25,148 nt of DNA from a virus. Under the pieces are notes generated by a model, which was not told the origin of the DNA, did not search any database, and saw only the letters and a list, made by a program, of their open reading frames with translations. The position numbers were made by a program, and so were the translations under genes. This document shows, piece by piece, positions 7,214 through 23,094 of this stretch. The stretch lies in IMG/VR virus record IMGVR_UViG_3300013772_000256, positions 1-25,148 of that record; one strand, given 5' to 3'. Numbering within the stretch: the stretch's first letter is position 1; the number at the start of each line of letters is the position of its first letter.

Positions 7214-7216
7214 AAA

Positions 7217-7951: not shown

Positions 7952-7958
7952 ATAACAA

Positions 7959-8612
7959 TTAATTTTTTTTAAGATAGATACTAAAATCAGCCAGTTTATG
8001 ATTTTCTAAAGCCTTAATACATTCCTGTAAAAATTCCCATTGCTCTTGATCTCTTTCACGGGTATCAAAATACACTTCATTAATTGCCTCAATTATTCCT
8101 GTCATAGTTGTATGCAATCTTTTTAAACGAAGCTTATCATATTCTTCATGCCGGTCATCTTCATACTCAGGCAGATCAATTAATTTATAAGCCTCACTCC
8201 CAGAAACGCGGAACATTTGCCACCCCGTTTCATCGTATATTCTTTGATCACGGATATGATCTTTCTTTTTATCATGAAATTCTTTTCCGTCAATTTCAAG
8301 CCCTATTTTTAAATAAGGATTTCCGAAATCAACACGATAATTTAAAACAGGATATTGAGGATATAATACAATGCCGAAATATCTTATTTCTTCCCAGGCG
8401 AACCATTCTATTGGAGTTAATATTTCCTTCCAATTAAAAGGGTAAGAATCCATCCAGAGCCTGTTATTTTGTTTTTGCAGGTAAATAATAAAAGGTTCAA
8501 ATTCTTTGTAGTATTCTGCAATAATCTGATGCCTGGCATAATCGCTTTTTGCCTTAGCATATTTTTCTCTTTGATTAGAGAAAAAAGCTTTGTAAAATTT
8601 AGAAATATCCAT
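7959..8612 (-). CDS. Restriction-endonuclease-fold (DUF559/Vsr-like) nuclease
   Basis: A 217-residue protein whose centre has a PD-(D/E)XK layout: TPIEWFAWEEIRYFG helix (66-80), YRVDFG (Asp95), a strand with the metal-binding LEIDGKEFH (Glu106, Asp108), a K/R-rich helix DHIRDQRIYDETGW, and MFRVSGSE (133-140). This is the pattern of DUF559 and Vsr-like single-strand or mismatch nucleases. The N- and C-terminal helical parts have no clear match. It lies between the Pol X-like gene and the replication genes, so a role in replication or repair is plausible. Starts at an ATG at 8612. Confidence 0.7.
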   Translation of the reverse strand: MDISKFYKAFFSNQREKYAKAKSDYARHQIIAEYYKEFEPFIIYLQKQNNRLWMDSYPFNWKEILTPIEWFAWEEIRYFGIVLYPQYPVLNYRVDFGNPYLKIGLEIDGKEFHDKKKDHIRDQRIYDETGWQMFRVSGSEAYKLIDLPEYEDDRHEEYDKLRLKRLHTTMTGIIEAINEVYFDTRERDQEQWEFLQECIKALENHKLADFSIYLKKN

Positions 8613-8651
8613 AAAATAATTTTTAATTCAATATAAAAAATATAATACTTT

Positions 8652-9260
8652 TTACCTGTACCTTGGCTCAATCCACATAACTCCAAGCCATTCAAAAAAA
8701 TCTTTTTCACTTATCCACACCGGAGGTTTTTCGCCATCCGGATTACTAACGATCCATGAAACGATCTTGCCTGCATTATCTCTTTTTGGATAACAATCAC
8801 TCCTTCTTCTTAATCCGAGATAAGTACCTACCCAACCTAATTCAGTCCACCTGGCAGCAATTACCTTATGTGAATAATCTGCAGAGCCGGTACGGATCAC
8901 CAGTTGCCGGTAATAATCTTCCTTGGTTGGCATAAAGAGATCCATCTTAATGTCTCCTTTTAAGATTACCTGCATGTACCGTCCATCCGTATTTCCTTTT
9001 ACCGTTTCTTTTTTGATATAATCAATCACCGATTTAAAGCCTGGTACCGTTTGATAAATGCCGCCACCAAAAAGATCAGTAGGAACGAATTCTTTTTTAG
9101 GCAGGCAAACGATCTCTATATCCTTTACAAATTCTTTTCCCCTTCTGAGGCTTCCTGCCTTATGGATGATATCACAATTAGGCTGTAGAAGCTCAAATAC
9201 CTTATCCGCAATTTTATTGGCGTATTGATAAGAGAAAGAGGGTGTTTCGGTTTTAGTCAT
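8652..9260 (-). CDS. DNA polymerase beta-superfamily nucleotidyltransferase (minimal Pol X-like)
   Basis: A 202-residue protein with the Pol X palm: AGSLRRG (35-41), then KDIEIV where Asp47 and Glu49 take the place of the usual D-x-D pair, and a third acidic residue Asp107 in IKMDLFMP. The TGS of RTGSADYS (124-126) and the C-terminal WVGTYLGL/ISEKDFFEWLG also fit Pol X thumb parts. The 8-kDa lyase domain and helix-hairpin-helix motifs seen in full Pol X enzymes are absent. It probably adds nucleotides to DNA ends or fills gaps; the substrate is unknown. Its ATG overlaps the stop of the MazG-like gene as ATGA. Confidence 0.75.
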   Translation of the reverse strand: MTKTETPSFSYQYANKIADKVFELLQPNCDIIHKAGSLRRGKEFVKDIEIVCLPKKEFVPTDLFGGGIYQTVPGFKSVIDYIKKETVKGNTDGRYMQVILKGDIKMDLFMPTKEDYYRQLVIRTGSADYSHKVIAARWTELGWVGTYLGLRRRSDCYPKRDNAGKIVSWIVSNPDGEKPPVWISEKDFFEWLGVMWIEPRYR

Positions 9261-9526
9261 AAAGTTTCTTTTAGGTTTTCTAAAAATCTGATTGCAGAAA
9301 CAGCCGATTGTATTGCCGTTTTTCTTATTCTTTCAATCTGTAATTCCTGCAATTGTTTTGCTTCCGCTTTATCATATTTACGATCCAAACATGCCTGCAT
9401 TAATTCTCCGGACTCTTTAGTTACGATTCCAGCCTGTGCGCAAACGTGATCAGGCCAGTTGGGCTGCAGTTTCTTTGCTGCTCGCAATTCAAGTTCTATG
9501 GCTTGCCAGATGTGGTTTCGTTTCAT
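9257..9526 (-). CDS. MazG-like helical protein, possible nucleotide pyrophosphohydrolase
   Basis: An 89-residue helical protein. The segment LQPNWPDHVCAQAGIVTKES followed by GELMQACLD (Glu38 and Glu41 in KESGEL) and the later AIQSAVSAIRFLENL resembles short phage MazG-like proteins, in which an E-x-x-E pair binds metal for hydrolysis of nucleoside triphosphates. The second acidic pair expected from this fold is weak (ELQIERIRK). Both ends overlap neighbours as ATGA (the fusion gene downstream of its ATG, the Pol X-like gene at its stop). A nucleotide-pool role would suit the neighbouring polymerase and methyltransferase genes. Confidence 0.5.
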   Translation of the reverse strand: MKRNHIWQAIELELRAAKKLQPNWPDHVCAQAGIVTKESGELMQACLDRKYDKAEAKQLQELQIERIRKTAIQSAVSAIRFLENLKETL

Positions 9527-12159
9527 GCTGGAATTTTTATTTTATCAGCAATAAAATCAAAAAGTGTAGGAATACCGATTTTATATTCAGCGGCTTTTAA
9601 ATGAACTGCTCCATCTAAAAAATATTGCGGGTTCAATTCATGTCCAATACCGTAACGTCCTTTTAATATTGCTCTTAGCGGAACAGTCATTAATCCGCCA
9701 AACGGATCATAAACAATATCTCCGGGATTACTCATTTGATCAATCACACGATCTCCAATATCAAATTGTAAAGGGCAGATATGCATTTCCTTACCCATGC
9801 TCCATTGGGTACCATTTAGCGTGAGCATGCGGGTAATATCTGTCCATACATCATCACTCCAGCTTTGTGGTTGCAGCAGCATAAAGCCGCTTGGGAGTTT
9901 ACCCATCACCTCTAAATCTTCAGCAATTTTTACATGCTGTTCAAAATCATAAATTGTGTGAAGGCTATGTTCTTTGAAGTTTTGGAAAATAGCAGAATGA
10001 TCCATTTCAGCTAATTCTTTTGGGTCCATTAACCTATCGCCTGAACTGCGAGCGTATCCATGTGCATCTATCTGCCAGCGTGAACGGGAATATCCGCTTC
10101 CTGGTACAATTGGAAGAGCATAATCTTCTTTTCTGTATTTTTGGGTTAAACCGTCTTTTTTTCTTTGAAGTGGTTTTGCTTTTTCTACAGGAAAGTCACT
10201 ATAAGAATTACTTGTATCGGTAGGATCCTTTCTGAAGATTAATAAATACTCCGGCATTCCCACTCCCATTTTGCTTCCATCCTTGCATTGTTCAGTCCAG
10301 CCTAAACGATAAGTTTGATTATTTTCCCTTACCACATCAGTAACAATGGTTTTCATTCCCATATATCCGAAGCCATGTTTTTCATAATGAAGTACCGCAT
10401 CAATATGTAAGTGATCAACGGTCTGGTACCCACGCCCTGTTAATCCGCTTGGAGTAATTCTATCCTTCACATGAATGCACATCAAACGGCCAGGCATCAG
10501 GCATTTTAAAAGATTTGGAGTTAAGTAATCCATTTGTGTCCAGAACTCTTTTTTATTCTCACTGTGCCCGAAATCAGCATAATTAGGAGAGTATTCATAT
10601 TGATTTCCAAAAGGAATTGAAGTGAGGATTAAACCAACACTGTTTTCTTCCATATTTGCAGATTCAAGAACGTTATCATTGTTTACGATGTGGTAATTTT
10701 TACCCTTGATTTCAATTCTTTCAACGCCTATTTTCCGGGTTAAAATCTCTGCCATTGCAGAAACTGAAAGGCCATATTTTTTAATGATATCTGTCATTAC
10801 TTTTACTTGTTTATTGTGATTATTCCATTTTTCTTCTAATCGTTTCCTGATCTGCCTTTCGGCTTCAGTATAAATAAGATCAATCCTTACACGATGTTTT
10901 TGCTGAAATCTGAGAATGCGGTGAATAGATTGGATGAAGTCATTGAACTTAAACCCGATGCCGGCATAGATGGCCCAATGGCAATAATATTGAAAGTTGC
11001 ATCCGCTGCCTGCCATTACTGGTTTAGCTGCTAACTCCTGAAATTCACCATCTGAAAAACCGATGATTGCTTTTACTTTTGTTTCTTCATCCTGCGAGCC
11101 TGTTAATATCCTAATAGATGGAACAGCCTTTTTTATTGCGTCTCTTTCTTTATCCTGGTCATGCCAGATAAGCCGATGAGCTTCGGGATCTTCATTCCTT
11201 ATTTCAAGTAGTTTTTCTACACGGGCGTTAATACTTTCCCTCTTTTCTTTAGAAGCACCCTGCAGTCCTATAGCATCGTCTTTTAATAATTTATACTGGC
11301 CATTCCATCCAATACCCCCGTCTGAATGATCAGAGGGTATCTCATGCCAGCGGATGTCAATTTCCGGCATATTATAATCAAGATCATCATCGGCATTTCC
11401 GGTTAAATCGGATGGCTTTGATACAAACAAGGCCCAGGATGCTACCCATAACCAGAACTCTTCTTCTTTGTGAGCATGAAGGGTAAGCTTATCCGCTTTG
11501 GTAGAATCTCTTTTGAAAAACCTGGTTTTTGCCTGGCTCACATCCATCACACCTAAAAAGTCGGCATAAGCAAGTAATTCTATGTATTCATTAGGCGAAG
11601 GAGTAGCAGTGGCCACAAACCGGTAAGGAACACATTCTGTTCCTCTTCGGTTTCCCATCGGGCCGGCATCACCAGTGAACAATCGCATGAATTCACGAAA
11701 TGTTTTTGAACCACCCAAACCTCTCAAAACAGAGGCTTCGTCAAGTGAAGCAACCTGGAATAATCTCGGATCAAGTTTGCCGTCTCTAACGGTTTCATAA
11801 TTGGTTAAATAAATTCCGGTTTCACCAGCTTCGGAAATATTCCTGATAAATTTTGGCGGTGTTTCCCAACCCAATATCTTTTTTGAATCCCTTATGAATT
11901 CCTGCCTTACACCCAGAGGGCAAATAATTAATCCTCTACCACCGGTTTTTAATAGAATGCATCTTACTGCTTCTAATTGGGTAACAGTTTTATGAAGTCC
12001 AAATGAAGCAAAACAAGCTCTTCTTCCACCGCGCACCATCCATTTTACCATTAGTTTGTTATGATCTTTCAAAGCAGGATTGATATCAGAATCATTGATC
12101 TCAAAGCCGCTATTTTGTGCTAACCTGACTTTACTTTTTAAAAAATCTTGATATTCCAT
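9523..12159 (-). CDS. Helicase-DNA methyltransferase fusion (SF2 helicase plus beta-class N4/N6 methylase)
   Basis: An 878-residue two-part protein. Residues 1-450 form an SF2/SNF2-like helicase: a P-loop region ASFGLHKT (51-58, with GLHKT in place of GLGKT), DEAS box (140-143), TATP (184-187), and a motif VI-like QSIHRILRFQQ (410-420). Residues 485-878 form an amino-methyltransferase with motif IV at 512-518 (LTSIPFG, where (S/N/D)PP(Y/F) is usual) and motif I DPFGG (818-822) near the C-terminus. The order IV, recognition region, motif I is beta class, modifying N4-cytosine or N6-adenine. It may methylate phage DNA against host restriction while remodelling it. No separate endonuclease domain is visible. 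Its ATG overlaps the preceding stop (TAATG). Confidence 0.85.
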   Translation of the reverse strand: MEYQDFLKSKVRLAQNSGFEINDSDINPALKDHNKLMVKWMVRGGRRACFASFGLHKTVTQLEAVRCILLKTGGRGLIICPLGVRQEFIRDSKKILGWETPPKFIRNISEAGETGIYLTNYETVRDGKLDPRLFQVASLDEASVLRGLGGSKTFREFMRLFTGDAGPMGNRRGTECVPYRFVATATPSPNEYIELLAYADFLGVMDVSQAKTRFFKRDSTKADKLTLHAHKEEEFWLWVASWALFVSKPSDLTGNADDDLDYNMPEIDIRWHEIPSDHSDGGIGWNGQYKLLKDDAIGLQGASKEKRESINARVEKLLEIRNEDPEAHRLIWHDQDKERDAIKKAVPSIRILTGSQDEETKVKAIIGFSDGEFQELAAKPVMAGSGCNFQYYCHWAIYAGIGFKFNDFIQSIHRILRFQQKHRVRIDLIYTEAERQIRKRLEEKWNNHNKQVKVMTDIIKKYGLSVSAMAEILTRKIGVERIEIKGKNYHIVNNDNVLESANMEENSVGLILTSIPFGNQYEYSPNYADFGHSENKKEFWTQMDYLTPNLLKCLMPGRLMCIHVKDRITPSGLTGRGYQTVDHLHIDAVLHYEKHGFGYMGMKTIVTDVVRENNQTYRLGWTEQCKDGSKMGVGMPEYLLIFRKDPTDTSNSYSDFPVEKAKPLQRKKDGLTQKYRKEDYALPIVPGSGYSRSRWQIDAHGYARSSGDRLMDPKELAEMDHSAIFQNFKEHSLHTIYDFEQHVKIAEDLEVMGKLPSGFMLLQPQSWSDDVWTDITRMLTLNGTQWSMGKEMHICPLQFDIGDRVIDQMSNPGDIVYDPFGGLMTVPLRAILKGRYGIGHELNPQYFLDGAVHLKAAEYKIGIPTLFDFIADKIKIPA

Positions 12160-12362
12160 TAAGCTGCTTTAGTTTTAAATAATTCCATTTGTAAATATTC
12201 ATTCACCGGTATTCCTGTTTTTACTCTTATCAAATCCTGAAATATGCAATCGGTGCACCAATGGCCACAAAAAAATCTAAAGATGTCATTATCCACTTCT
12301 TTAAGTTTAAATCTCTTTGATGAGCTAGGATATTTATAATATTCTCCGATGAAATAATTCAT
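12159..12362 (-). CDS. Small Cys-containing protein (67 residues)
   Basis: Unrecognised. It has aromatic residues at the N-terminus (MNYFIGEYYKYPSSSKRFK) and a cluster FFCGHWCTDCIF (C-x3-C-x2-C, with a His between) that could hold a metal. It is one base short of clear spacing: its TAA shares a base with the ATG of the fusion gene, so translation is coupled. Twelve bases separate it from the m5C methyltransferase gene. An accessory role in modification is only suggested by position. Confidence 0.5.
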   Translation of the reverse strand: MNYFIGEYYKYPSSSKRFKLKEVDNDIFRFFCGHWCTDCIFQDLIRVKTGIPVNEYLQMELFKTKAA

Positions 12363-12374
12363 GATTCAAGTGTT

Positions 12375-13793
12375 TTAATTAAGTGATTTTATACATTGTC
12401 CTACCAGCCATTCCATGGCCGGTGGAGTTACAGCGTTTCCTAATTGTTTTACCTGGTCTTTTGAAGAGCCAAGGACGGTATATGTGTTGTCGAAACCCAT
12501 TCCTATTTGAACCTCATGAGCCTTGATTGTTCTGTAATAACAATCCTGTATGTCCGGAATCTTTTCTTTATCATAATAAGACAATGCAACCCGGTCAGTA
12601 CCGGTAAAAGTTCCCACAGGTGATGTGATAGCAGAACAAACATCAGAGCTGCCATTGTAATAAGATAAATAAGAGGTTAATTTTTGAGGACTGAAAATGC
12701 CATGATATTCTTTTGTTGTAAAAGTGGAAATTGATTTTTCGATACCTCTGCTGGTGCTTTGTCCTTTATTTTCAACAATGAAAGGTGTCATTGGATTGAA
12801 ACAAATTCCGGAAGTTTGCCTGGTTGATTGTGTAAGAAGTGAATCAAAAATGGTTCTTACATAAGACGAGTCAGACGCTTTGGTGTATTCATTTTTAATA
12901 ATAAAAGGAGAGGCATTAAAATCGTATTCATTAAGCCAGAAACGTTTTCTTCCAACATCAATTCTTCTAAGAGTATTATCTACTATCTTAGGTTTTATAT
13001 CGCCGATTCTTCTCCCAGGTATTGACCAATCAATGCAATTAAAAGCAGCATAATAATATGGTTTTACAACATCTCCATGAATCGGACAGCAATAAACATA
13101 TTGCTTATTATACTTACCAAACTTTTCATCTTTCTTCTTCCACGATTGAATGGCATGAATATCTTTTTCGCACTTATGACAATAAGCCAAAGGAGTGAAA
13201 TTTAAATCAGGAGCTTTATTTCCTTTCTTCCAAAAAACTACATACATCCTGTCCCTGCTTTGTGGCGTGGGATGACAAAACATAGAGTTTAAATAAACGC
13301 ACTTATGTTGATACCCGAGAGAATACATTGCATGCAACCAGCTTTCAAACATTACCCATTTTCTGGCTTCCACTACGTTTTCAACTATAATTAAATTGTA
13401 GGAATGATATTCTGCAAATCTTGCTACGTCCCACATGGTCGCCCGGCTTCTTTCATCAGAAGGATCAATGATAGCCTTTGTAAATAACTCTGTTTGTTTT
13501 TTTGGTTTCTTTTTCCCATTTCCATTAGTGTGATTAGTGCATTCCGGACTGGTAATTAAAATATCAGTTGAACAATATCTTCGCGGATCGCTTGCTGAAA
13601 TATCAGTACAATCATGATCGGTATCCGGGAAGTTGGTATTGTGCGTTTCAATGGCAAGTTTCCAATGATTTAAGGCAAGCTTTATCTCCACGCCACCACC
13701 AATACTTCTGCCGTAATTTCTTGCGCCTTGTGATGATCCACCGGCCCCGCAAAACTGGTCTGTGATTGTTATGTGTGATTTTTTCTTTGTCAT
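12375..13793 (-). CDS. DNA cytosine-5 methyltransferase with zinc-ribbon insertion
   Basis: A 472-residue m5C methyltransferase. Motif I FCGAGG is at 14-19. Motif IV is ITSPECTNH with the nucleophile Cys85 (SPEC, where PPC is usual), motif VI is ENV (138-140), motif VIII is QSRDR (178-182), and motif X is LGNAVTPPAMEWLV near the C-terminus. An insertion at about 205-239 carries CHKC and CCPIHG, which looks like a zinc ribbon before the target-recognition region. It transfers methyl groups to cytosine C5, probably protecting phage DNA from restriction. There is no cognate endonuclease beside it. Its ATG overlaps the end of the GNAT/Mom-like gene by four bases. Confidence 0.9.
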   Translation of the reverse strand: MTKKKSHITITDQFCGAGGSSQGARNYGRSIGGGVEIKLALNHWKLAIETHNTNFPDTDHDCTDISASDPRRYCSTDILITSPECTNHTNGNGKKKPKKQTELFTKAIIDPSDERSRATMWDVARFAEYHSYNLIIVENVVEARKWVMFESWLHAMYSLGYQHKCVYLNSMFCHPTPQSRDRMYVVFWKKGNKAPDLNFTPLAYCHKCEKDIHAIQSWKKKDEKFGKYNKQYVYCCPIHGDVVKPYYYAAFNCIDWSIPGRRIGDIKPKIVDNTLRRIDVGRKRFWLNEYDFNASPFIIKNEYTKASDSSYVRTIFDSLLTQSTRQTSGICFNPMTPFIVENKGQSTSRGIEKSISTFTTKEYHGIFSPQKLTSYLSYYNGSSDVCSAITSPVGTFTGTDRVALSYYDKEKIPDIQDCYYRTIKAHEVQIGMGFDNTYTVLGSSKDQVKQLGNAVTPPAMEWLVGQCIKSLN

Positions 13794-14251
13794 TTTTCTT
13801 TACTTAATTTTTCAAGTATTCTTAATTTGTTCACTTTTGTAATACCAATTTGTTTCCAGCCGTTTACTTTAAAACAATAACCAGGGTTTTTACTTTTAAT
13901 TTTGAAAGGATTTATATAAGTATAAAATCTTTCATTAGGCCATTTCTCCCTTGCAATGTTTTCAGCTTGCTTTAGTAATTCAGAAGAAAGGATGTTACTC
14001 TCATTTCTAAAAACCGAACAATTAATTCCCTGTTGTTTATCCATACTTCTAAATTTTCTCCAAACAAAAAGCGCATCATTATTTTTACCAATCAAAACCA
14101 CTTTTTCTCCTGGGCCTACAAACAATTTTCGTTTTCTTCCATCTTTATAATTGTAGCAGCTGTAATGCTTTTCAAATAATTTAAGAGCAACCGTATTTCC
14201 ATCTTTAACTTTTATCCAATAGATTTCATCATTAAATAATCTGTTACTCAT
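13790..14251 (-). CDS. GNAT-like protein related to phage Mom-type DNA modification proteins
   Basis: A 153-residue protein with an alpha/beta order suggestive of the GNAT fold: TVALKLFEKHYS, FVGPGEKVVLIG, DALFVWRKF, CSVFRNES, SSELLKQAENIAREKWPNER, then FYTYINPFKIKSKNPGYCFK and VNGWKQIG. The run SxFRNE...SSELL...A...WPxxRxYTYxNP...NPGYCFKxxGW recurs in phage proteins that I associate with Mom-like adenine modification, but this is from memory and not certain. It is coupled by short overlaps to the m5C methyltransferase (downstream) and a small gene (upstream), fitting a DNA-modification cluster. Confidence 0.5.
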   Translation of the reverse strand: MSNRLFNDEIYWIKVKDGNTVALKLFEKHYSCYNYKDGRKRKLFVGPGEKVVLIGKNNDALFVWRKFRSMDKQQGINCSVFRNESNILSSELLKQAENIAREKWPNERFYTYINPFKIKSKNPGYCFKVNGWKQIGITKVNKLRILEKLSKEK

Positions 14252-14576
14252 TTATAATTTCTAATTTCCCTTCTAAAATTTGGTCTATGGCCGTTTCAAT
14301 AGCTTCCCTTTGTGTAGGATTCAATAAGGCGATCTTTTCATTTATGGCCGGTATTGCAAGCACATCAGAATTAACCTCCTGCTTAATTCCTTCACGAACT
14401 TCTTCAGGCAAAAATGGATGAGTGGTTAAGTCAGTGTGAATCCATTTTATTTTATGGCTGTAACTCCTGAAGAGCTTTGCACCTTTGCTATCTGCATGCT
14501 CACGAATGAAATCTTCAAAGTGTTCCTGTGCAAGTTTTAAATGATGCACCGCGCTTACGATGTTGCTTCCTTTCAT
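14244..14576 (-). CDS. Hypothetical helical phage protein (110 residues)
   Basis: Unrecognised as a named family. It is almost wholly helical: SAVHHLKLAQEHFEDFIREH, SKGAKLFRSYSHKIKWI, and LPEEVREGIKQEVN, ending acidic (LEGKLEIINE). Its ATG overlaps the end of the SNF2 helicase gene by four bases and its stop overlaps the GNAT-like gene, so it is made together with both. It could be a partner of one of them; no catalytic motif is seen. Confidence 0.55.
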   Translation of the reverse strand: MKGSNIVSAVHHLKLAQEHFEDFIREHADSKGAKLFRSYSHKIKWIHTDLTTHPFLPEEVREGIKQEVNSDVLAIPAINEKIALLNPTQREAIETAIDQILEGKLEIINE

Positions 14577-16246
14577 ATTTTAATTTTAGAAAACAGGTTT
14601 ATAAATTCATCAATCATATTTGTTTCAATTTCTTCTTCAGCGCCGGTAACCTGGTTCACGATGTTTCTTTTCTTTTCAATAATTTGATAGATATGTTCGT
14701 CAATGGTTTCATGGCCGAGGAAGTAATCACACTGCACAGAATTCTTTTGCCCGATGCGATGTGTGCGATCTTCGCATTGCTCACAATCTGCTGGATGCCA
14801 CGGCAACTCAATAAAGGAAACCCTGGAAGAAGCTGTAAGGGTAATTCCTACGCCACCGCTCTTTATATTACAAACAATCACCTGCACCTTAGGATCATTC
14901 TGGAACCCGTCCACGGCCCTTTGCCGCTGGTCCATGCTGTCATCGCCGGTAATGGTTACGGTGCCGGGAATAGCTCTTTTTAATTCCTGAACGATTTCTT
15001 TATGCCAGGCAAATACAACGATCTTTTCTCCTGAATCAACCACTTCTTCAATGTGTTCTATCATTTGCTCAATCTTGCCGCGTGCGGATATTTTTTTCAG
15101 AATGCCAATCATTACCATTACTTCTCCGCGAAGGCTTTTTGTGATCTCAGCATCTGTTTTTGAAAGATTTTCTTTCAGGTAGGCTTTTAAATCATTCTCA
15201 GCTTTATTATATTCCGCTCTGGTACTGATATCGCATCTAACAATATTTCTCATTTTGTCAGGAAGGTCTGTAAGCACTTCTCTTTTTTCCCTGCGATAAA
15301 AACAATTCTTATGCATCAGGAAATTCAATTCTTTTAAATTGCTTGCCTGGTTGTAGCCCTGGCAATAACGATTCATAAATCCAGTGTAACCGCCAAATAC
15401 CTGTAACCTATCAATTATGTGCAATTGTGGGATCAGGTCCATTGGCTTATTTACAACCGGCGTTCCTGTGAGTGCCAGCACATATTCTTTGCCTTTAGAA
15501 ATACCCATTACAAACTTGGATTGCTGTGTTTTTCCGTCCTTGCAACGATGAACTTCATCTATGATTATTGCATCAAATAAATTAATAGTATCATTGAAAT
15601 GAATATGATTAATCCGCAGCGGCATTTTGTTGCCATTTTTATCAAGATGGATATCTATTTTTTCAACAAAGAATTTCTTCAGGCTCTCATAATTGCAGAT
15701 GAAATATTTGATCATGCCTACTTTGTAGAATTGCGGCCAGGTAGTTTTAACCCGGTCTTTTAAGATCAATGCTTTTTTGTAGGTCCATTTTTCTTCTATC
15801 TCGCGTTTCCAGTTTTCGCGCAAGGTGGCCGGACAAATAACCAAAATACATTTGCAGCCGGCACCTTCAACGGTTGCTATTGCTTGAATTGTTTTTCCAA
15901 GGCCAGGCTGATCCCCAACTATCAATTTCTTTTTATCGAGCGAATAAGCAACACCTTTGCTCTGGTAAGAAAACATTTCCATGCGTAAAGGAATATCAAT
16001 CATCAAATCGGGGAGAGGGCTTATTTCTCCACTTACTGCTTCGGCGTTAAAAGCTTTTGGCTTATCGCCAAAGGTTGCGGCCCAGGATAACAATGCATTC
16101 CTTGAATGAGCGGGAACAAACCAAAACTTTTCTCCATGGCGGTTTCTAAAACCGGTTCCGGGAATTTGTTTTATAGCATCTACCAGCCATGGTTTGTATT
16201 CAAACCTTACTTCAAAGCCATTTGATATTTCGTTTATCTCAACCAT
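14573..16246 (-). CDS. SNF2-family DNA helicase/translocase
   Basis: A 557-residue ATPase. An N-terminal HARP-like segment (FEVRFEYKPWLVDAIKQIPG, RHGEKFWFVP) is followed by Walker A GDQPGLGKT (111-119), DEVH (230-233), LTGTP (259-263), and the C-terminal helicase lobe with NIKSGGVGITLTAS, SFIELPWHPADCEQCEDR and HRIGQ (motif VI). All SF2 motifs are intact, unlike in the helicase half of the fusion gene. It probably remodels DNA in replication, recombination or modification. Its start overlaps the end of the upstream 67-residue gene by 13 bases. It belongs to a common phage class of SNF2 proteins and need not be chromatin-related. Confidence 0.9.
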   Translation of the reverse strand: MVEINEISNGFEVRFEYKPWLVDAIKQIPGTGFRNRHGEKFWFVPAHSRNALLSWAATFGDKPKAFNAEAVSGEISPLPDLMIDIPLRMEMFSYQSKGVAYSLDKKKLIVGDQPGLGKTIQAIATVEGAGCKCILVICPATLRENWKREIEEKWTYKKALILKDRVKTTWPQFYKVGMIKYFICNYESLKKFFVEKIDIHLDKNGNKMPLRINHIHFNDTINLFDAIIIDEVHRCKDGKTQQSKFVMGISKGKEYVLALTGTPVVNKPMDLIPQLHIIDRLQVFGGYTGFMNRYCQGYNQASNLKELNFLMHKNCFYRREKREVLTDLPDKMRNIVRCDISTRAEYNKAENDLKAYLKENLSKTDAEITKSLRGEVMVMIGILKKISARGKIEQMIEHIEEVVDSGEKIVVFAWHKEIVQELKRAIPGTVTITGDDSMDQRQRAVDGFQNDPKVQVIVCNIKSGGVGITLTASSRVSFIELPWHPADCEQCEDRTHRIGQKNSVQCDYFLGHETIDEHIYQIIEKKRNIVNQVTGAEEEIETNMIDEFINLFSKIKI

Positions 16247-16437
16247 TTTTTATTTTGATATTCTGATATTACTTTTTCTATTTGCCAAAAGAAGAATCCT
16301 GTTATTACAGATATTTGTTCGGATGTTGCTCCACTTCTCCAATATCCAATGATGGCAGCTTTCTCATATTTATTAAGTAAATACATATCATCCACCCTTT
16401 TCTTCAATAATTGTGGTGATTGGAAATTTAGATTCAT
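16234..16437 (-). CDS. Small HTH-like protein (67 residues)
   Basis: A short basic protein: LLKKRVDDMYLLNKYEKAAI, then RSGATSEQISVITGFFFWQIEKVISEY, a layout suggestive of a helix-turn-helix (ATSEQISVITG). It is not recognised as a family. Its ATG overlaps, as ATGA, a stop codon that belongs to an out-of-frame tail downstream of the broken reverse transcriptase gene rather than to the reverse transcriptase itself. Its own end overlaps the SNF2 helicase start. Confidence 0.5.
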   Translation of the reverse strand: MNLNFQSPQLLKKRVDDMYLLNKYEKAAIIGYWRSGATSEQISVITGFFFWQIEKVISEYQNKKWLR

Positions 16438-16444
16438 TGGATAA

Positions 16445-16933
16445 TTACAGCATTAACTTCCGGATCAAATTCTGCAATAACAATATCTCCGAGGATAACA
16501 TTAAGAACTTTTTCACATCCAGTTTCAAACAATACTTTGTTTCCTGTTCATTTATTAATGCCTTCTTTACGGCATTAGCGGCGGCGTGTATGCCCTTTCC
16601 TTTGATGCAGCTATAAGTGTCGGTTGTAAATATGGAGACAAAAACAGGCTCTAAAACGTTCATTATTGCATGGTGAATAATGCGGTCAGGAAAATAAGGT
16701 AAGCGAAATATTTCGCGCTCCTTTGGCTCGTAAATTTTGAAGGTTGTATAAGCAGATGTTTTGTAAGTTCTATCAATAAGCATTTTATGAAGCATCAAAA
16801 TATTTGCTTCGCGGTTTTTATCATGCAGCTTTATACCATACTGAAAACCCTTCCCTTTTCGGGCATTCATATCAGCCAGATGAAGATTATCCAGGCTGCA
16901 AATTTGTTGGTATAAATTGTTTAATCTTTTCAT
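16445..16933 (-). pseudogene. Truncated DGR reverse transcriptase (N-terminal third only)
   Basis: A 162-residue frame. The start (MKRLNNLYQQICSLDNLHLA, ARKGKG) and the following YTTFKIYEPKEREIFRLPYF and DTYSCIKGKGIHAA are typical of DGR reverse transcriptases of the group II intron-like clade. The first catalytic motif KLDVKKF (Asp139) is present. The expected continuation after KKF is Y-P-x-x-D and then about 200 more residues with the YxDD box; instead the frame gives an unrelated hydrophobic tail and stops at 16445. No YxDD is found elsewhere in the window. It lies downstream of the template repeat, the usual DGR order. No accessory (avd-like) gene is seen. It could be a real deletion or an assembly join. 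Confidence 0.85.
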
Positions 16934-17045
16934 TGCCTTTGCTTCTAAAAGGTCGCTTTCATTTTACTTACCAGCGCCCTTTGTGTAGAAAGTTGTTTTT
17001 TGCCATGTGGCAAGGCCTGTACTGCATTAAAAAAAATCTTTGCTT

Positions 17046-17121
17046 AGGTGGACGCTGCAATTCGTATTCGTATTCCAGTTATCGTAATCGTTGTACGACA
17101 GGGCGGAACCTGAACCTGAAC
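17046..17121 (-). repeat. DGR template repeat (TR)
   Basis: A 76-bp non-coding segment between the second target gene and the reverse transcriptase. Its coding-strand copy reads as Asn-rich codons if translated (S-Y-N-D-Y-D-N-W-N-T-N-T-N-C-S), the usual template design that gives wide amino-acid choice without stops. It aligns without gaps to VR1 (69 bp) and VR2 (76 bp). All differences are at template adenines. The flanks differ sharply from the VR flanks on both sides, which marks the ends. Confidence 0.93.
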
Positions 17122-17156
17122 AACCGCAGCCATTACAGTACACAACCCTTTTTCTT

Positions 17157-17540
17157 TTATGCTTTCAAATACAGGTCTTCATATAATTTAATGAATTGCT
17201 TTCCTGCATATTTTGCCGTTTCCGAATCCCGATATGAAAGGCGGACGCCGCAACCCGTACCCGCATCCCAGCCATCGTAAACGCCGTACGACAGGGCGGA
17301 ACCCGAAGGCTTACTTTTAGTGGCTTTCACTTCAAACCAGGGAAAGTATTTACGTTGGCTCATATCCGTGTAATCCGCTACCCAATCGCCATTTAAAACA
17401 TCAGCTACAACGTTTAGTTTGTATTGAGCAATAACCGGCTTTTGATACTCTTCAGGTATCATAGATACATCCGGCATTTTTTTGGGGTCTAACCCTTTTA
17501 CTTTAAAGGCTTCCTGCCATGTTTTGATTTTCTTTTGCAT
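17157..17540 (-). CDS. DGR target protein 1
   Basis: A 127-residue predicted soluble protein without a signal peptide or membrane segment. The N-terminal part is helical (KTWQEAFKVKGLDPKK, EEYQKPVIAQYKLNVVADVL), then NGDWVADYTD and the aromatic KYFPWFEV. The variable repeat encodes SALSYGVYDGWDAGTGCGVRL, short of the end by about 27 constant residues that include YAGKQFIKLYEDL. This NGDW...YFPWF...CGVRL...GKQF layout recurs in Bacteroidetes proteins and fits a C-type-lectin-like variable fold by analogy with other DGR targets; the fold is inferred. It is a paralogue of the adjacent gene. No tail-fibre features are present, so the ligand is unknown. Confidence 0.88.
   Translation of the reverse strand: MQKKIKTWQEAFKVKGLDPKKMPDVSMIPEEYQKPVIAQYKLNVVADVLNGDWVADYTDMSQRKYFPWFEVKATKSKPSGSALSYGVYDGWDAGTGCGVRLSYRDSETAKYAGKQFIKLYEDLYLKA
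17239..17307 (-). repeat. DGR variable repeat 1 (VR1)
   Basis: 69 bp matching template bases 17046-17114. There are 14 substitutions, every one at a template adenine on the coding strand (13 A to G, 1 A to T). No template C, G or T differs. Most changes fall in Asn, Asp and Thr codons; one is a silent TCA to TCG. Confidence 0.93.
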
Positions 17541-17568
17541 AATTTTTAATTGATTGATGGTTGATTGG

Positions 17569-18018
17569 TTAAATAAATTTGTTATAGATAGAGAGAAACT
17601 GCTTTCCTACATATTCAGCCGTTTCCGAATCCCGATATGAAAGGCGGACGCCGCAATTCGCATTCGTACCCCAGCAAGCGTAACCGCCGCACGACAGGGC
17701 GGAACCCGAACCCGAACGTTTGAAGTATGGATAGTATTTGTACTGACTGGTGTTGCTCAAATCAGCTATCCAATCGCCATTGAGCGACTTAGCAATGATG
17801 CACATTTGAGTAAAGCCGTTTATAGCTTCCTCAAGTTCACTTCCAGGGATTTTATAAGGCAAGATGTTGTAACGATCAATCCCCTGATCTTCGCAGGCAT
17901 CTTCAAAGGTTTTAATACGGTCGGTAATTTTTTGATCATATTTTTTGATCTGTTCAACCTGCTGTTTTGTTAAAGTAATTTCTACTTCTCTGCCGTTAAT
18001 GCTGATTTTTGTTTGCAT
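17569..18018 (-). CDS. DGR target protein 2
   Basis: A 149-residue paralogue of target 1 with the same order of elements. It has a longer N-terminus (ISINGREVEITLTKQQVEQI, then KTFEDACEDQGIDRYN), LNGDWIADLSNTSQYKYYPYF, a Ser/Gly linker, the variable segment SALSCGGYACWGTNANCGVRL, and a constant tail SYRDSETAEYVGKQFLSIYN. No signal peptide or membrane span is seen. The two target genes lie 28 bases apart and look like an old tandem duplication, since only the variable region and the block after it are nearly identical in DNA. Cysteines at two variable sites come from mutated template codons (TAC to TGC and AAC to TGC). Confidence 0.88.
   Translation of the reverse strand: MQTKISINGREVEITLTKQQVEQIKKYDQKITDRIKTFEDACEDQGIDRYNILPYKIPGSELEEAINGFTQMCIIAKSLNGDWIADLSNTSQYKYYPYFKRSGSGSALSCGGYACWGTNANCGVRLSYRDSETAEYVGKQFLSIYNKFI
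17642..17717 (-). repeat. DGR variable repeat 2 (VR2)
   Basis: 76 bp matching the whole template 17046-17121. There are 14 substitutions, all at template adenines (12 A to G, 1 A to C, 1 A to T on the coding strand). Two of them are silent TCA to TCG changes at the 5' edge. The 39 bp ending just inside the repeat (17618-17656) are identical to 17215-17253 in target 1 and probably contain the initiation-of-mutagenic-homology region. Confidence 0.93.
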
Positions 18019-18053
18019 ACGTTTATTTTGAAAAAAGGTTACTTAAAAAGTCA

Positions 18054-18674
18054 TTATTCTGCATCTTTTTCATCCTCATCTTCCAACTCTTCGCCAAACA
18101 ATTCCAGTTGCTGCTCAGGCGCTCTTTTCCCATTAAAAAGATATTCTTCTACTTCATCTATGCAGGCAGAAACATCATCATACAGTTCGGAGAGAAATGG
18201 ATATTCTGATCCTTCAAATTTTGTGAATGGACTAGGCAGATTAACTATGCCATATTTTCCATCTAAGTACCCGCTAATAGTCACCCCTTCGTTTTCATCA
18301 TTTCCACCGATTGAAAATCCTCTGACACCAAATTTTTCATATTCAACTTGTTGAAATGCGGTGGAATTCTTTGGCGCTTTTTCCTGATCTGCAAGTATTG
18401 CCAAATGCCGGTGTAGCTTTTGAAAGGCAGTTTTTAAATCTTCATGAATTGGTACTGTGCAGGAAAGCTTGGTATCTTTTTTACTATGGCCTTGCAGCTC
18501 TTCCGTATATTCTACATTCAGAAAGAGACCATCTTTAATTGAAGCTTTTTTAATTTTTACAGGATTATGTTTTAATTGATTGGAAACGGCTTTCAGATGA
18601 TTGGTGAATTTTTCAACATCGTTAACAACGATTTCGTTTCCTTTTACTGAGGATATTCCATTGCTTTTACTCAT
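18054..18674 (-). CDS. Conserved-looking phage protein of unknown function (206 residues)
   Basis: Not recognised. Residues 1-150 look like a folded alpha/beta protein (NEIVVNDVEKFTNHLKAVSN, LFLNVEYTEELQGH, HEDLKTAFQKLHRHLAILA, GVRGFSIGGNDENEGVTISG). The C-terminus is very acidic (ELFGEELEDEDEKDAE), a feature of some single-strand-binding and DNA-mimic proteins, although there is no OB-fold signature. It lies between the NinB-like gene and DGR target 2. It does not resemble the small helical DGR accessory protein Avd. Confidence 0.55.
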   Translation of the reverse strand: MSKSNGISSVKGNEIVVNDVEKFTNHLKAVSNQLKHNPVKIKKASIKDGLFLNVEYTEELQGHSKKDTKLSCTVPIHEDLKTAFQKLHRHLAILADQEKAPKNSTAFQQVEYEKFGVRGFSIGGNDENEGVTISGYLDGKYGIVNLPSPFTKFEGSEYPFLSELYDDVSACIDEVEEYLFNGKRAPEQQLELFGEELEDEDEKDAE

Positions 18675-18704
18675 AAGAGATTATTTGTTTTTATGTTTTA
18701 AAAA

Positions 18705-19139
18705 TTAAATTGAGTTTTCAAATTCTACTAACTGCTCATTGGGAGAAGGGATGTAAACGTTTAGAAATTCAGCGCTCCATTTGCAAACCGTTTCTATAAA
18801 TTCATTGAATTCAGGAATCGTTAGTTTGGATGTGTGGCCTGCTATTTCTATCAGATCACCGGTTTGTTTATTTACAATATTTCTCTTTAAATGAACCTGT
18901 TTAATTACTTCGTGTGCATCATCATCATTTCTTACTTCATCATAACCGGCATCGTACAATCCGCGGCGAACCAAAGGCACCATTACGGACCAATAGTAGG
19001 CGTTCTGTGGCAGCGACCTTTTCCGGTAATCTTTGAAGGTTAACAGATGCTTTCCATCTTTCAACTGGTTGAACATTGCTTTTAGTTCTGGCATGTTTAC
19101 AATCTTCCGGTTATTAATATTGATGATCAGTTCACGCAT
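18705..19139 (-). CDS. NinB-like recombination protein
   Basis: A 144-residue protein with the features of NinB-type phage recombination proteins: a strand-rich start, YRKRSLPQNAYYW (residues about 38-50, the conserved R-S-x-x-Q-N-x-x-x-W element), a helix with DAHEVIKQVHLKR, and the C-terminal TIPEFNEFIETVCKWSAEFL followed by IPSPNEQ. NinB binds single-stranded DNA in lambdoid phages. Its position beside the exonuclease-like and RecT genes agrees. Its start overlaps the end of the exonuclease-like gene by 13 bases. Confidence 0.6.
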   Translation of the reverse strand: MRELIININNRKIVNMPELKAMFNQLKDGKHLLTFKDYRKRSLPQNAYYWSVMVPLVRRGLYDAGYDEVRNDDDAHEVIKQVHLKRNIVNKQTGDLIEIAGHTSKLTIPEFNEFIETVCKWSAEFLNVYIPSPNEQLVEFENSI

Positions 19140-19804
19140 GTTGCAATTGGTTTGATATTTCCAAAAAGATACCAGTAGCGAAAAGCCAATTCCTGGTATT
19201 TTGCACGTCCGCTGTTATATAATTCTGATCCACGTTTCACCGGCACTTTAAATATTTTGTGATTCACTTTGCTTATGCCGATGAATATGAAATTGGATTT
19301 GTTTTCTATGTCCATATAGAAAGCCGCCTGTCGATCGTAATTGTAATGATGGATGGATTGCTCAAAAGCCTTTTGAGAAGTGCATGCAGTAGTTTTTAAA
19401 TCTCCGGATAAATCAATCTTTGGTGCAAAAAAATCCCATTTGCAACGAACGTCTAAATCGAAATCAAATCCATTATATTGAATAGGCCAATCCTTTCTGA
19501 TGCTCACTTTCTGCATCTCACATTGATTGGACAATGACCTGCAGAATGGATCCGCAAAAAATACTTTCTTCATTTTAATGGCCGTATCAAATTCCTCTTT
19601 TTGGAATTGGGTACCGCAAACAGTCAGGTTGTAATAATTCACCTGCTCCGGCTCTGTGATCATTGCATCCAAAAGACTTCCAAACCGGAAAGCCGCTTCC
19701 AGGTCAATCACAATTTGCTGTGGAAGCCAATACTTTTCCAGCCAGCCCAATTCTGAATTGGAAACTTCCGGACGTGAATAATATGGATCAACGATTATTG
19801 ACAT
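19127..19804 (-). CDS. RecE/exonuclease VIII-like PD-(D/E)XK nuclease
   Basis: A 225-residue protein with the layout of phage PDDEXK exonucleases: FRFGSLLDAMI (about 40-50), VRCKWDFF with Asp124 and then DLSGDLKTT (132-139, the D-x-K element), and NYDRQAAFYMD (155-165), the RecB-family-like Q-x-x-x-Y helix. It would resect 5' ends so that RecT can anneal the exposed strand. RecT lies about 2.4 kb upstream in the same transcript. The protein is shorter than E. coli RecE, as expected for the isolated nuclease domain. Confidence 0.8.
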   Translation of the reverse strand: MSIIVDPYYSRPEVSNSELGWLEKYWLPQQIVIDLEAAFRFGSLLDAMITEPEQVNYYNLTVCGTQFQKEEFDTAIKMKKVFFADPFCRSLSNQCEMQKVSIRKDWPIQYNGFDFDLDVRCKWDFFAPKIDLSGDLKTTACTSQKAFEQSIHHYNYDRQAAFYMDIENKSNFIFIGISKVNHKIFKVPVKRGSELYNSGRAKYQELAFRYWYLFGNIKPIATCVN

Positions 19805-20041
19805 TTATAAAATGTGTGTTTTGGGAATTCCAAATTTTGTTTCCATTTCAATTATTCTATCCATACGATCTTTGCCAGGTAAAGAGGTTTCGTTTATATT
19901 CTTCACCATTTTTAAAACATCTTCTATTAAATATTTAATGTTTTGATTAACTCCACAAATTGCATTTGCTCTTTCTTCATCTGCCTTATTAGGACATAGG
20001 GACGAAACAATTCTTTCAGAAACTTTGTATGTTGATTCCAT
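19805..20041 (-). CDS. Hypothetical protein (78 residues)
   Basis: Unrecognised: a helical protein (SERIVSSLCPNKADEERANA, NIKYLIEDVLKMVKNI) with a basic and acidic mix and two cysteines far apart. It ends directly at the ATG of the exonuclease-like gene, so it is co-translated in the recombination module. No function is proposed. Confidence 0.5.
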   Translation of the reverse strand: MESTYKVSERIVSSLCPNKADEERANAICGVNQNIKYLIEDVLKMVKNINETSLPGKDRMDRIIEMETKFGIPKTHIL

Positions 20042-20070
20042 TAATCATGATTTTAAATACTGAATTGATT

Positions 20071-20220
20071 TTATTCTTGTTCAATTATCCAGAGATCTTC
20101 TTTCGCCTCAAATTTTCTTTGTTCCTCCTGGATCAGGATTTCTTCATCCAAATAGGTATCTGATTCAGAAGCTACATTTCCGTAATTCTCCATCTGCCAG
20201 GTTATGTATGCTTCACTCAT
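20071..20220 (-). CDS. Small acidic protein (49 residues)
   Basis: A 49-residue frame from an ATG at 20220 to a TAA at 20071-20073. The sequence MSEAYITWQMENYGNV, then LDEEILIQEEQRKFEAKEDL is acidic and helical. Its ATG overlaps the stop of the HNH endonuclease gene as ATGA, the same coupling seen throughout the window, which supports it as real. Not recognised. Confidence 0.5.
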   Translation of the reverse strand: MSEAYITWQMENYGNVASESDTYLDEEILIQEEQRKFEAKEDLWIIEQE

Positions 20221-20768
20221 GATTCGGTTGCTTTTTTATATTTCCAATAAAATCCGTAACACTTATATCCATCACGAATAGCTTGTTGTGGATATCCACT
20301 AATTTTTTTACCTAAAAATCTTAAAGCGTCATTCATTGAATCAAACGAATGAATAATCTCACCGGAGTCATTTAATAATTCCACAGCTAACTTTTTATGA
20401 TTCCCACGGCCATTTAAATATGTATGAAGATTATTTTCAGAAGGAGTTGCCCATTCAAGATTTTCAACATTATTGTTAGTTCTTATAAAATCAATATGAT
20501 TGACATCTCTTTTATTATCAGGGTTACTTAGAAAAGCCAAAGCAACAAGCCTGTGAACCAATTGCATTTTACTCTTTGTGGCTTTTTGTAAATTAACTTG
20601 TAAATAGCCGCGACTATCTAAAGCCGGATTTAATACAGTTCCCTTCTGAACTCTGGAACCATTTGATCTTGCTCCAACGACTCTATCCAAGCCCCTGACG
20701 TTTCCAAAACTTGAAACCTCATAATAATTTTCATAGCCTCGAATAGGCAACCATACTTCAATAGTCAT
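20217..20768 (-). CDS. Stand-alone NUMOD4/HNH homing-type endonuclease
   Basis: A 183-residue protein. The N-terminal NUMOD4 motif is WLPIRGYENYYEVSSFGNVR (6-25), with a middle LNPALDSRGYLQVNL. The HNH core is VHRLVALAFLSNP (71-83) with His72, VNHIDFIRTNNNVENLEW (89-106) with Asn90-His91, and ATPSENN (107-113). A NUMOD1-like part (FDSMNDALRFLGKKISGYPQ) follows. Such proteins are usually mobile and nick or cut DNA at specific sites. Here it forms tidy four-base overlaps with both neighbours rather than sitting in an intron, so it is either long resident or used by the phage. Confidence 0.88.
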   Translation of the reverse strand: MTIEVWLPIRGYENYYEVSSFGNVRGLDRVVGARSNGSRVQKGTVLNPALDSRGYLQVNLQKATKSKMQLVHRLVALAFLSNPDNKRDVNHIDFIRTNNNVENLEWATPSENNLHTYLNGRGNHKKLAVELLNDSGEIIHSFDSMNDALRFLGKKISGYPQQAIRDGYKCYGFYWKYKKATES

Positions 20769-22135
20769 TTTGTTTTCCGATTTACTGCTTTAAATGTTTC
20801 TTCATATTTTAAAAACTTGCTATCAATGAATTGACCCTCTTTATGAGCAACCTTTTCACAATAAGCCTTCATCTGATCTAATTTGGTATTACCTAACTTA
20901 TCGAGAGGATAATTTTTCCCTTCTTTATCAAAGAACAGGGCAAATATTTGAGTATAACCTACAGGGTGAAGCACATTAATTTCATAACCCTGCCTTGATT
21001 CAGGAGCAGGTGCAGATTCAGCCATGGCAGCTTCCTGTTCAAACATTACCATTGTTTGTTCGCCTTGCTTTTTTACTTCTGCTTCCAAATCTGATTTACG
21101 TTTTTGTTCTTCCGCTTCCGCTTTCATTTTGTCGGATTCTTCCTGTTCCCGGCGCCTCTGTTCTGCAGCAGCAGCATCCTGCTTTTTCTTCATTTCTGCC
21201 TGGCGTTCCTGCTCTTTTTGTCTTTCAATAGCAGCTTCAGCTTCCAGGCGCTTCTTTTCTTTTGCATTGGCATTAACAATCTCTGCCTGCCTTTTTTCTT
21301 CGGCAATCCTGTCAGCTTCTGCCTGAGCTTTCGCTTCATCATCCAGCCTTTTTTGTTCCTGCAATTCTGACAATTTTGAAGGAAGTTTATCAACCAACTC
21401 ATCTTTAAGAAGGTTCATTTCGGAGAGAAAAACTTCTTCTAATTGTGATTCATTTACTATAATAACCGCATCAGCAAATGATTTTAATTCAGCATCAGAA
21501 TGATATTTGACAGTAATTGAAGTATAAGGCCCTTCGTGTTTGAATTGAAAAGAAAATGTCAACTCTTTTAACTTGCCAGATAATACGTCAAACTTTTCAA
21601 GTGGGATAGCATTGAAACCGCTTTGCATTTTGGTTTTTCTTTCAAGCAAATACTGAGTGAATTGTTCTTTATAATTTGCTTCCATCTGGTATTTGATATC
21701 AATCGCCTCACTTGCTTTGGCCGCTTCCAATTCAGCCTGTTTTCTTTTGCGTTCCTGTTCAGCGGCCACCTCCTTTGCATACTGATCACGATGGCCTTGT
21801 ATCTGGGAAGGAATGGTTCCTGCTTTCTTTACGTCCAAATCATTTTCCACCTCAGTAAACATTTTCTTCAACTGGTCCATGATCTGTGTAACACCGGCGC
21901 GGCTTTCCTTCATTGATTTATTGGCAGCGCTTACATTCGCCAGGTATTTATTAGCACGCTCATCGGCTTCCGGACTCATACCTTCTTCCTGAATTGTAGC
22001 AAGAATATTCCTTCCAACAGCGATCGCTTTTTCTTTTCTGTTTTGATTGGCCATTAATATTTCCGGACCTGTTTTTAAAACCTCTAAGGAGTTTTCAATA
22101 ATGGTGACCTGGTTATTTTCTATTACTGTTTCCAT
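20765..22135 (-). CDS. Long coiled-coil protein of the recombination module (456 residues)
   Basis: Residues about 110-145 and 250-370 are Ala/Glu/Lys/Gln-rich coiled coil (for example EKKRLEAEAAIERQKEQERQ), giving a TolA-like composition by convergence. Between them lies a folded part (FSFQFKHEGPYTSITVKYHS), and the C-terminal 75 residues (YEINVLHPVGYTQIFALFF...) form another small domain. It has no signal peptide or membrane span and lies between recT and the nuclease genes, as similar proteins do in Bacteroidetes phages. A structural or inhibitory (Gam-like) role is possible, but no homology is claimed. It starts at an ATG at 22135. Confidence 0.65.
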   Translation of the reverse strand: METVIENNQVTIIENSLEVLKTGPEILMANQNRKEKAIAVGRNILATIQEEGMSPEADERANKYLANVSAANKSMKESRAGVTQIMDQLKKMFTEVENDLDVKKAGTIPSQIQGHRDQYAKEVAAEQERKRKQAELEAAKASEAIDIKYQMEANYKEQFTQYLLERKTKMQSGFNAIPLEKFDVLSGKLKELTFSFQFKHEGPYTSITVKYHSDAELKSFADAVIIVNESQLEEVFLSEMNLLKDELVDKLPSKLSELQEQKRLDDEAKAQAEADRIAEEKRQAEIVNANAKEKKRLEAEAAIERQKEQERQAEMKKKQDAAAAEQRRREQEESDKMKAEAEEQKRKSDLEAEVKKQGEQTMVMFEQEAAMAESAPAPESRQGYEINVLHPVGYTQIFALFFDKEGKNYPLDKLGNTKLDQMKAYCEKVAHKEGQFIDSKFLKYEETFKAVNRKTK

Positions 22136-22161
22136 TTTATAAAAAGTTGATTGGTTAAAAA

Positions 22162-23094
22162 TTAAAATTCATCATCCTCATAAGTGATGCTTGCAGAAGG
22201 TTGTTTCTTTGGTTCTTCTGTAAATGATTCATCATTCAATTGATCTACCTGTCTTTCAATGGTGTTTCCTTCCGGAGCATTCACGGAAGGCATGCTACCG
22301 TTTAAGCCATAATCAATTTTAGGAGTAGTTTCTGCATCTTCATCCACGATATTGCTATGCAGTTGGGAAAATTCTCCCATCCTCATTTTTGGATAAGAAC
22401 GAAACGCATGTTTCAAGGTTTTTGCCTGGATCATTCCTGGCAATCCATCAGTCCAGGCCTTTGAATTAGGGTCCTTGCTGAACTTTCTCAACTTCTGTAT
22501 TTCTTCAATACTCAATACTTTGTAATCAGCGGATCCATCATTGCGCTCAATACGGAGATAACAAGCAATAATATTATCAGTCTGGCGTGGGAAGGTGGCC
22601 ACATGTTCAAGAAATACTGATCCGTTTTTAGTCCCATGCTGAAAATGATCACCTTCATAAACAAGAATTGGATTGTCAGCATATTTTATTTGGCGCTGCT
22701 GTACCCTCATGTGCAATTCTCCGTAACCACTAATCATTAGCGTGGCTCTTTTCTCCCACTTAGGCGCTGTTTTGGTTCCTACATTAGTATTAAAAGAAAC
22801 CACGTAGGCGTGCTTCATAGAAGGATCAAATGATAATCCGTTCACGGCCATGTCAAGGAAGCATCCATAAAGAGATAATTTACTGCATGCCTGTAAATCT
22901 GCTTTATCCTGAATCAGTTTCATGAAGTGAAATTTTTCCGCTTCATACTTTGCGATTGCTCTTTCAGCGTCGCCACCATTCATGATTGTATAGATGTGTT
23001 TGAATCTATCGGCCACTTCCGGCAGGTTGGCCAGTTGGGCCGGAGAAGTCTGTTCAATCTTTTGAACAATACTTAATTTTCCATTTGTTTCCAT
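22162..23094 (-). CDS. recT: RecT family single-strand annealing protein
   Basis: A 310-residue protein with the RecT core: KLSLYGCFLDMAVNGLSFDP (about 72-91), HAYVVSFN, TLMISGYGELHMRVQQRQI, and SKAWTDGLPGMIQAKTLKHA with FRSYPKM near 240, which matches the conserved C-terminal helix region of RecT. The last 60 residues are acidic and probably flexible. It anneals complementary single strands during phage recombination and works with a 5'-3' exonuclease, here the RecE-like protein. It is preceded by a gap holding a strong hairpin (23136-23161). Confidence 0.88.
   Translation of the reverse strand: METNGKLSIVQKIEQTSPAQLANLPEVADRFKHIYTIMNGGDAERAIAKYEAEKFHFMKLIQDKADLQACSKLSLYGCFLDMAVNGLSFDPSMKHAYVVSFNTNVGTKTAPKWEKRATLMISGYGELHMRVQQRQIKYADNPILVYEGDHFQHGTKNGSVFLEHVATFPRQTDNIIACYLRIERNDGSADYKVLSIEEIQKLRKFSKDPNSKAWTDGLPGMIQAKTLKHAFRSYPKMRMGEFSQLHSNIVDEDAETTPKIDYGLNGSMPSVNAPEGNTIERQVDQLNDESFTEEPKKQPSASITYEDDEF

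Follow-up and report, generated by a model that had tools for sequence, protein, structure and literature searches.

The viral DNA analysed here (25,148 bases; the window denotes this whole stretch) carries a real signature of a diversity-generating retroelement (DGR), but the cassette is broken as assembled, and it is a further member of a kind already described (PMC3521204, PMC10907252). That its repeats are the product of adenine-specific retrohoming, in which a template repeat (TR) was copied in the past into both variable repeats (VR1 and VR2), is strongly supported. The most satisfactory account, which we regard as probable, is that this is the DGR of a phage, probably one of Bacteroidota, with a real past of retrohoming, from which a later deletion removed the catalytic half of the reverse transcriptase (RT) and a partner gene, so that the cassette as assembled is not self-sufficient.

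Table 1. Positions of the cassette components in the window, with examples of the partner gene from related loci
Feature	Coordinates	Strand	Remarks
TR	17046..17121	minus	76 bp; repeat family D1; flanked by target 1 and the RT fragment
VR1	17239..17307	minus	69 bp; C-terminal part of target 1; 14 differences from TR
VR2	17642..17717	minus	76 bp; C-terminal part of target 2; 14 differences from TR
TR-RT spacer with conserved hairpins	16934..17045	minus	112 nt; covariation in 51 sequences; resembles Rfam RT-17 (RF03020)
RT fragment	16508..16933	minus	residues 1-142, stopping just past motif A (LDVKKF); phrog_1423 3.3e-49 over residues 1-142
Tail of the RT frame, unrelated to RTs	16445..16507	minus	residues after the break LMLSSEILLLQNLIRKLML, then stop; relatives have YPSxDH here
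Gene X, probable 3' remnant of another gene in a different frame	16434..16514	minus	frame EKVLNVILGDIVIAEFDPEVNAVIIQ; stop overlaps the next start codon
Target 1	17157..17540	minus	127 aa; phrog_11581 6.1e-18; homologues adjoin TR/RT in relatives
Target 2	17569..18018	minus	149 aa; phrog_11581 1.6e-17; paralogue of target 1, 42% identical (alignment)
Gene of about 100 aa at the RT end, examples in relatives	L003:1308-1613; L004:2590-2886; L072:6944-7255		

A gapless alignment of the TR with the two VRs on the minus (coding) strand yields 13 A to G changes and one A to T in VR1, and 12 A to G, one A to C and one A to T in VR2; all 14 differences in each VR lie at TR adenines, and none of the 28 falls on a template C, G or T. 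The probability that all 14 mismatches would fall on A by chance is 7.5e-11 for VR1 (A at 19 of 69 sites) and 5.6e-11 for VR2 (A at 20 of 76 sites) under the hypergeometric distribution. This bears out the original prediction, which had placed all 28 differences at adenines with A to G as the commonest change, and the alignment of 17046-17121 with 17239-17307 and 17642-17717 that it proposed is the one described here. The match of VR1 to the TR stops at 17307, in agreement with the shorter VR1 given there. None of the 106 non-adenine sites is changed, which gives a 95% bound of 2.8% per site, itself a loose one. The TR is intergenic relative to the minus-strand genes, and the VRs lie inside the two target ORFs.

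The original prediction further placed the 76-bp TR between an RT gene and two targets. The TR and the targets stand, but the supposed RT gene (16445-16933) encodes only the N-terminal part of such an enzyme, and the complete cassette that was implied fails on two counts: the RT is without its catalytic palm (neither SQ nor YADD), and the conserved gene expected downstream of it is absent. Residues 1-142 are up to 75% identical to intact RTs of at least 316 aa, and by sequence they appear to be of the same family as RTs that adjoin TR/VR pairs, placing the fragment in the DGR clade; homology is lost at residue 142. In complete viral RTs, LDxKKF is followed by YPSxDH, then by SQ (region 4) at residue 182 and YADD at residue 213. 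Both of these motifs lie past the break, and the RT frame of the window ends before either. A tblastn search of the whole window with full-length relatives recovered the N-terminal part only, and we accordingly reject a split or frame-shifted RT. A weak tblastn match at 188-346 (E about 0.1) is a separate open frame after the small-terminase gene and was likewise rejected as a piece of RT. The 25,148-base record, itself a fragment of the phage genome, contains a single RT match, and another RT could lie outside it. Given that SQ and YADD are found neither in the RT frame nor in the rest of the window, we have filed the locus as a DGR relic and not as a working DGR.

Scans with the RT recovered 80 loci in IMG/VR, at 63-75% identity, and 80 further loci in genome contigs, the best of which are mainly from Bacteroidota (Niastella, Pedobacter, Chryseobacterium, Elizabethkingia and Flavobacterium), with some from Ignavibacteria. 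Adenine-restricted TR/VR pairs occur beside most of the viral RTs, usually as two VRs, which lie upstream of the TR at distances of about 190 and 400-600 bp, and the order small targets, TR, RT is kept in most of about 80 viral relatives. The locus is thus a member of a widespread DGR clade, and the host of the phage, as judged from these relatives, is probably a member of the Bacteroidota. In two of the related loci (L003 and L072) three genes come after the RT: first the one of about 100 aa, next a gene homologous to window ORF 18054-18674, and last an SNF2 helicase whose family is also represented in the window, at 14573-16246. The RT, partner gene and helicase of these relatives run in one direction, as do the RT fragment and helicase of the window, and the junction at the end of the RT fragment therefore keeps both order and strand. 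A scan of IMG/VR with the helicase returned nothing, although distant homologues are present within the RT loci already collected. No close relative with an intact arrangement was found among these loci, the nearest RT being 75% identical, and tblastn searches with gene X and with ORF 16234-16437 gave no relative in phages, in 22 related records or in IMG/VR.

The gene missing downstream of the RT encodes a protein of about 100 aa and can be found where the RT ends in 124 of 163 RT loci, most commonly overlapping the end of the RT gene by 14, 4 or 8 nt; a profile search of the window found no match to it. The family corresponds to phrog_19665 and has no significant match in Pfam. A predicted model of fair quality (pLDDT 88) retrieved nothing significant with Foldseek, and VIA-align gave matches up to Z 6.8, with many OB-type nucleic-acid-binding domains among them. 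As such Z values are common for small barrels, an OB-like fold is at best a suggestion from the model. Profile searches against solved structures returned only insignificant matches for this protein and for the targets. No description of the gene came up in the literature searched, though one may exist elsewhere. The protein is a candidate partner of the RT.

Unlike the enzyme, the RNA component of the system appears to be preserved. In an alignment of the TR-RT spacer of the window with those of 50 relatives, 95.1% of the cells pair and 10 of the 12 pairs show two-sided changes (113 cells). The covariation score is 0.572, whereas shuffled alignments give 0.206 and sliding the structure along the alignment gives no more than 0.118; the latter control is biased in favour of the structure, which was predicted from the same alignment, but the two-sided changes are nonetheless many. 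As read from the alignment, conserved RGTA and GAA strands in the spacer may form a loop-E-type internal loop. Rfam searches at the gathering threshold gave no match in 8 relatives; below it, the window spacer matches RT-17 with 36.9 bits (E 3.3e-5; gathering cut-off 40.4) and the spacers of relatives score 32-39 bits; RT-17 may thus represent the spacer RNA of DGRs of this type. In the Bordetella phage BPP-1 the spacer brings in the RT-Avd complex and primes cDNA synthesis (PMC12875486). With its hairpins kept, the RNA substrate therefore looks intact while the enzyme is not.

Homologues of the targets are present in 111 loci, with two per locus in 84 of them and a median length of 151 aa. 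With a possible C-type lectin fold of the targets in mind, a structure was predicted; its confidence is low across the VR (pLDDT 56-57), and fold searches returned no match. The genes of the window lie mostly on the minus strand, and the DGR is set (window 5801-23094) among replication and recombination genes encoding a DnaB helicase, DNA methylases, the SNF2 helicase, an exonuclease-like protein and RecT, with no recognisable tail genes beside it; hence the targets may not be receptor-binding proteins. Separately, the nearest relative of target 2 (46%), whose end resembles a VR, is encoded at L082:6001-6465 on a contig with Mu-like transposition genes (identified by eye). The 9.9 kb examined of that contig contains no RT and no TR/VR pair, and this gene is possibly an orphan target.

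The share of A to G among the changes in VR1 and VR2 (25/28, 89%) is unusually high for the DGR clade. In 63 non-redundant viral relatives A to G makes up 57% of changes, with a maximum of 77%, such that the window lies above all 63 (P 2.7e-4); when the base 3' of every adenine is taken into account, 16.4 of 28 would be expected, and the excess remains (P about 1e-4). A published survey of DGRs puts this share at about half (PMC6642488), and opposite A the BPP-1 RT inserts C most often (59%), with strong context effects (PMC12875486). Some of the outer A to G differences, which are common to both VRs, may be fixed boundary differences and not products of mutagenesis. The excess can be explained by selection acting on both VRs, or by chance, the feature having been picked after inspection. 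Because it was noticed post hoc at one locus among 64, we build nothing on it.

Taken together, these observations suggest how the locus reached its present state. As the repeats and the homology show, the RT once copied the TR RNA into cDNA with errors opposite adenines, and this cDNA replaced VR1 and VR2, thereby altering the C-terminal parts of two small paralogous proteins. A later deletion is then proposed to have fused RT codons 1-142 with the end of a downstream gene that is unrelated to the RT, taking the catalytic half of the RT and the conserved partner gene and sparing the TR, VRs, targets and spacer RNA. Judged from the synteny with L003, the removed stretch would measure at least about 0.8 kb, beginning within the RT and extending across the partner gene. 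The deletion is seen in the assembly, and the sequence suggests its presence in the genome itself. Following it, retrohoming by the cassette alone would be impossible. As the repeats carry no non-adenine change, we infer that retrohoming probably ended with a recent loss, or else that the population is still supplied by intact copies or by an RT that acts in trans.

Not every alternative to a deletion in the genome is of equal weight. Ordinary drift between the two targets and a pseudogene copy, with no retroelement involved, could appeal to the paralogy of the targets, which have sequence in common outside the VRs; it is refuted by the restriction of the differences to adenines, with a P of about 1e-10 for each VR, and by the recurrence of the same TR-VR pattern in most relatives, leaving it with practically no credibility. 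In this respect the claim of the original prediction, that the repeats reflect adenine-specific DGR retrohoming and not divergence of paralogues, is strongly supported by the mutation record, the homology of the RT and the conservation of both gene order and spacer RNA. A more serious alternative is that the DGR is intact in the real phage, the truncation being an assembly misjoin or the contig following a minority deletion form that exists beside members with an intact RT. The clean VR/TR pairs are what an active system would show, the targets, TR and spacer RNA are undamaged, closely related viral RTs show no truncation except where a contig ends, and in Thiohalocapsa the diversity of a degenerate locus has been explained by intact structural variants (PMC10907252). 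Against this, the junction (about 16507/16508), 0.5 kb from the repeats, shares no repeat of at least 14 bp with the rest of the window, which counts against a simple misjoin without excluding one, and the joined parts are in conserved order and strand. We consider this explanation unlikely, though it retains appreciable weight.

It is also conceivable that the cassette is still diversified in trans by a host RT, or one from a co-infecting phage, able to recognise the TR RNA. The intact spacer RNA, the clean repeats and the departure of the A to G count from that expected by context would all be in keeping with such an arrangement, for which there is a precedent in Thiohalocapsa, where it has been inferred (PMC10907252); but no partner RT can be linked to the phage, and this DGR clade normally uses its own RT, which adjoins the TR in relatives. 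We rate the proposal as very improbable. A further version, which we rate about as low, is a parasitic DGR, in which the phage shed its RT and partner gene and its TR RNA is diversified by the foreign RT of a host or co-infecting phage. Were this true, the A to G-rich spectrum would reflect the foreign enzyme.

Inactivation of the RT in a cassette with clean repeats has precedents. The DiGReF survey of 2012 described DGRs with truncated RTs and adenine-only VR/TR pairs in Ruminococcus gnavus ATCC 29149, Acaryochloris marina MBIC11017 and Bacteroides sp. 9_1_42FAA, and read them as very recent inactivations (PMC3521204). The window resembles these inactivated DGRs in its truncated RT and in VR/TR differences at adenines alone; in those cases a stop, an insertion element or a frameshift was responsible, whereas here the catalytic half and the next gene have apparently been deleted. 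With the two-target cassettes of Bacteroidota phages and prophages (L002-L085, L087 and following) it shares the order targets, TR, RT, homologous targets and RT, and the same spacer RNA, but it is without the complete RT, and the gene of about 100 aa found in most of them. For incomplete loci of Thiohalocapsa PB-PSB1 two explanations have been offered, action in trans and the existence of intact structural variants, which were seen in long reads (PMC10907252). Those degenerate loci likewise have machinery missing or pseudogenised; however, they are chromosomal, with complete cassettes elsewhere in the genome, and this record holds no other RT. The BPP-1 DGR is similar in its adenine-specific TR/VR errors and in the RT beside the TR, and its spacer RNA is required (PMC12875486). 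It differs in having one target, a tail-tip protein, and the accessory gene avd; here the targets number two, both small and situated among replication genes, and no Avd was recognised.

The locus illustrates that a perfect adenine-only record is no proof of a working DGR, as the same contig is without the catalytic half of the enzyme, and surveys that score TR/VR patterns alone would count this cassette as intact. The deletion form offers a natural case for the question of cassettes served in trans. In the wider clade, the conserved small gene that adjoins the RT, whose product has a predicted fold that is OB-like at best, is a candidate partner worth testing.
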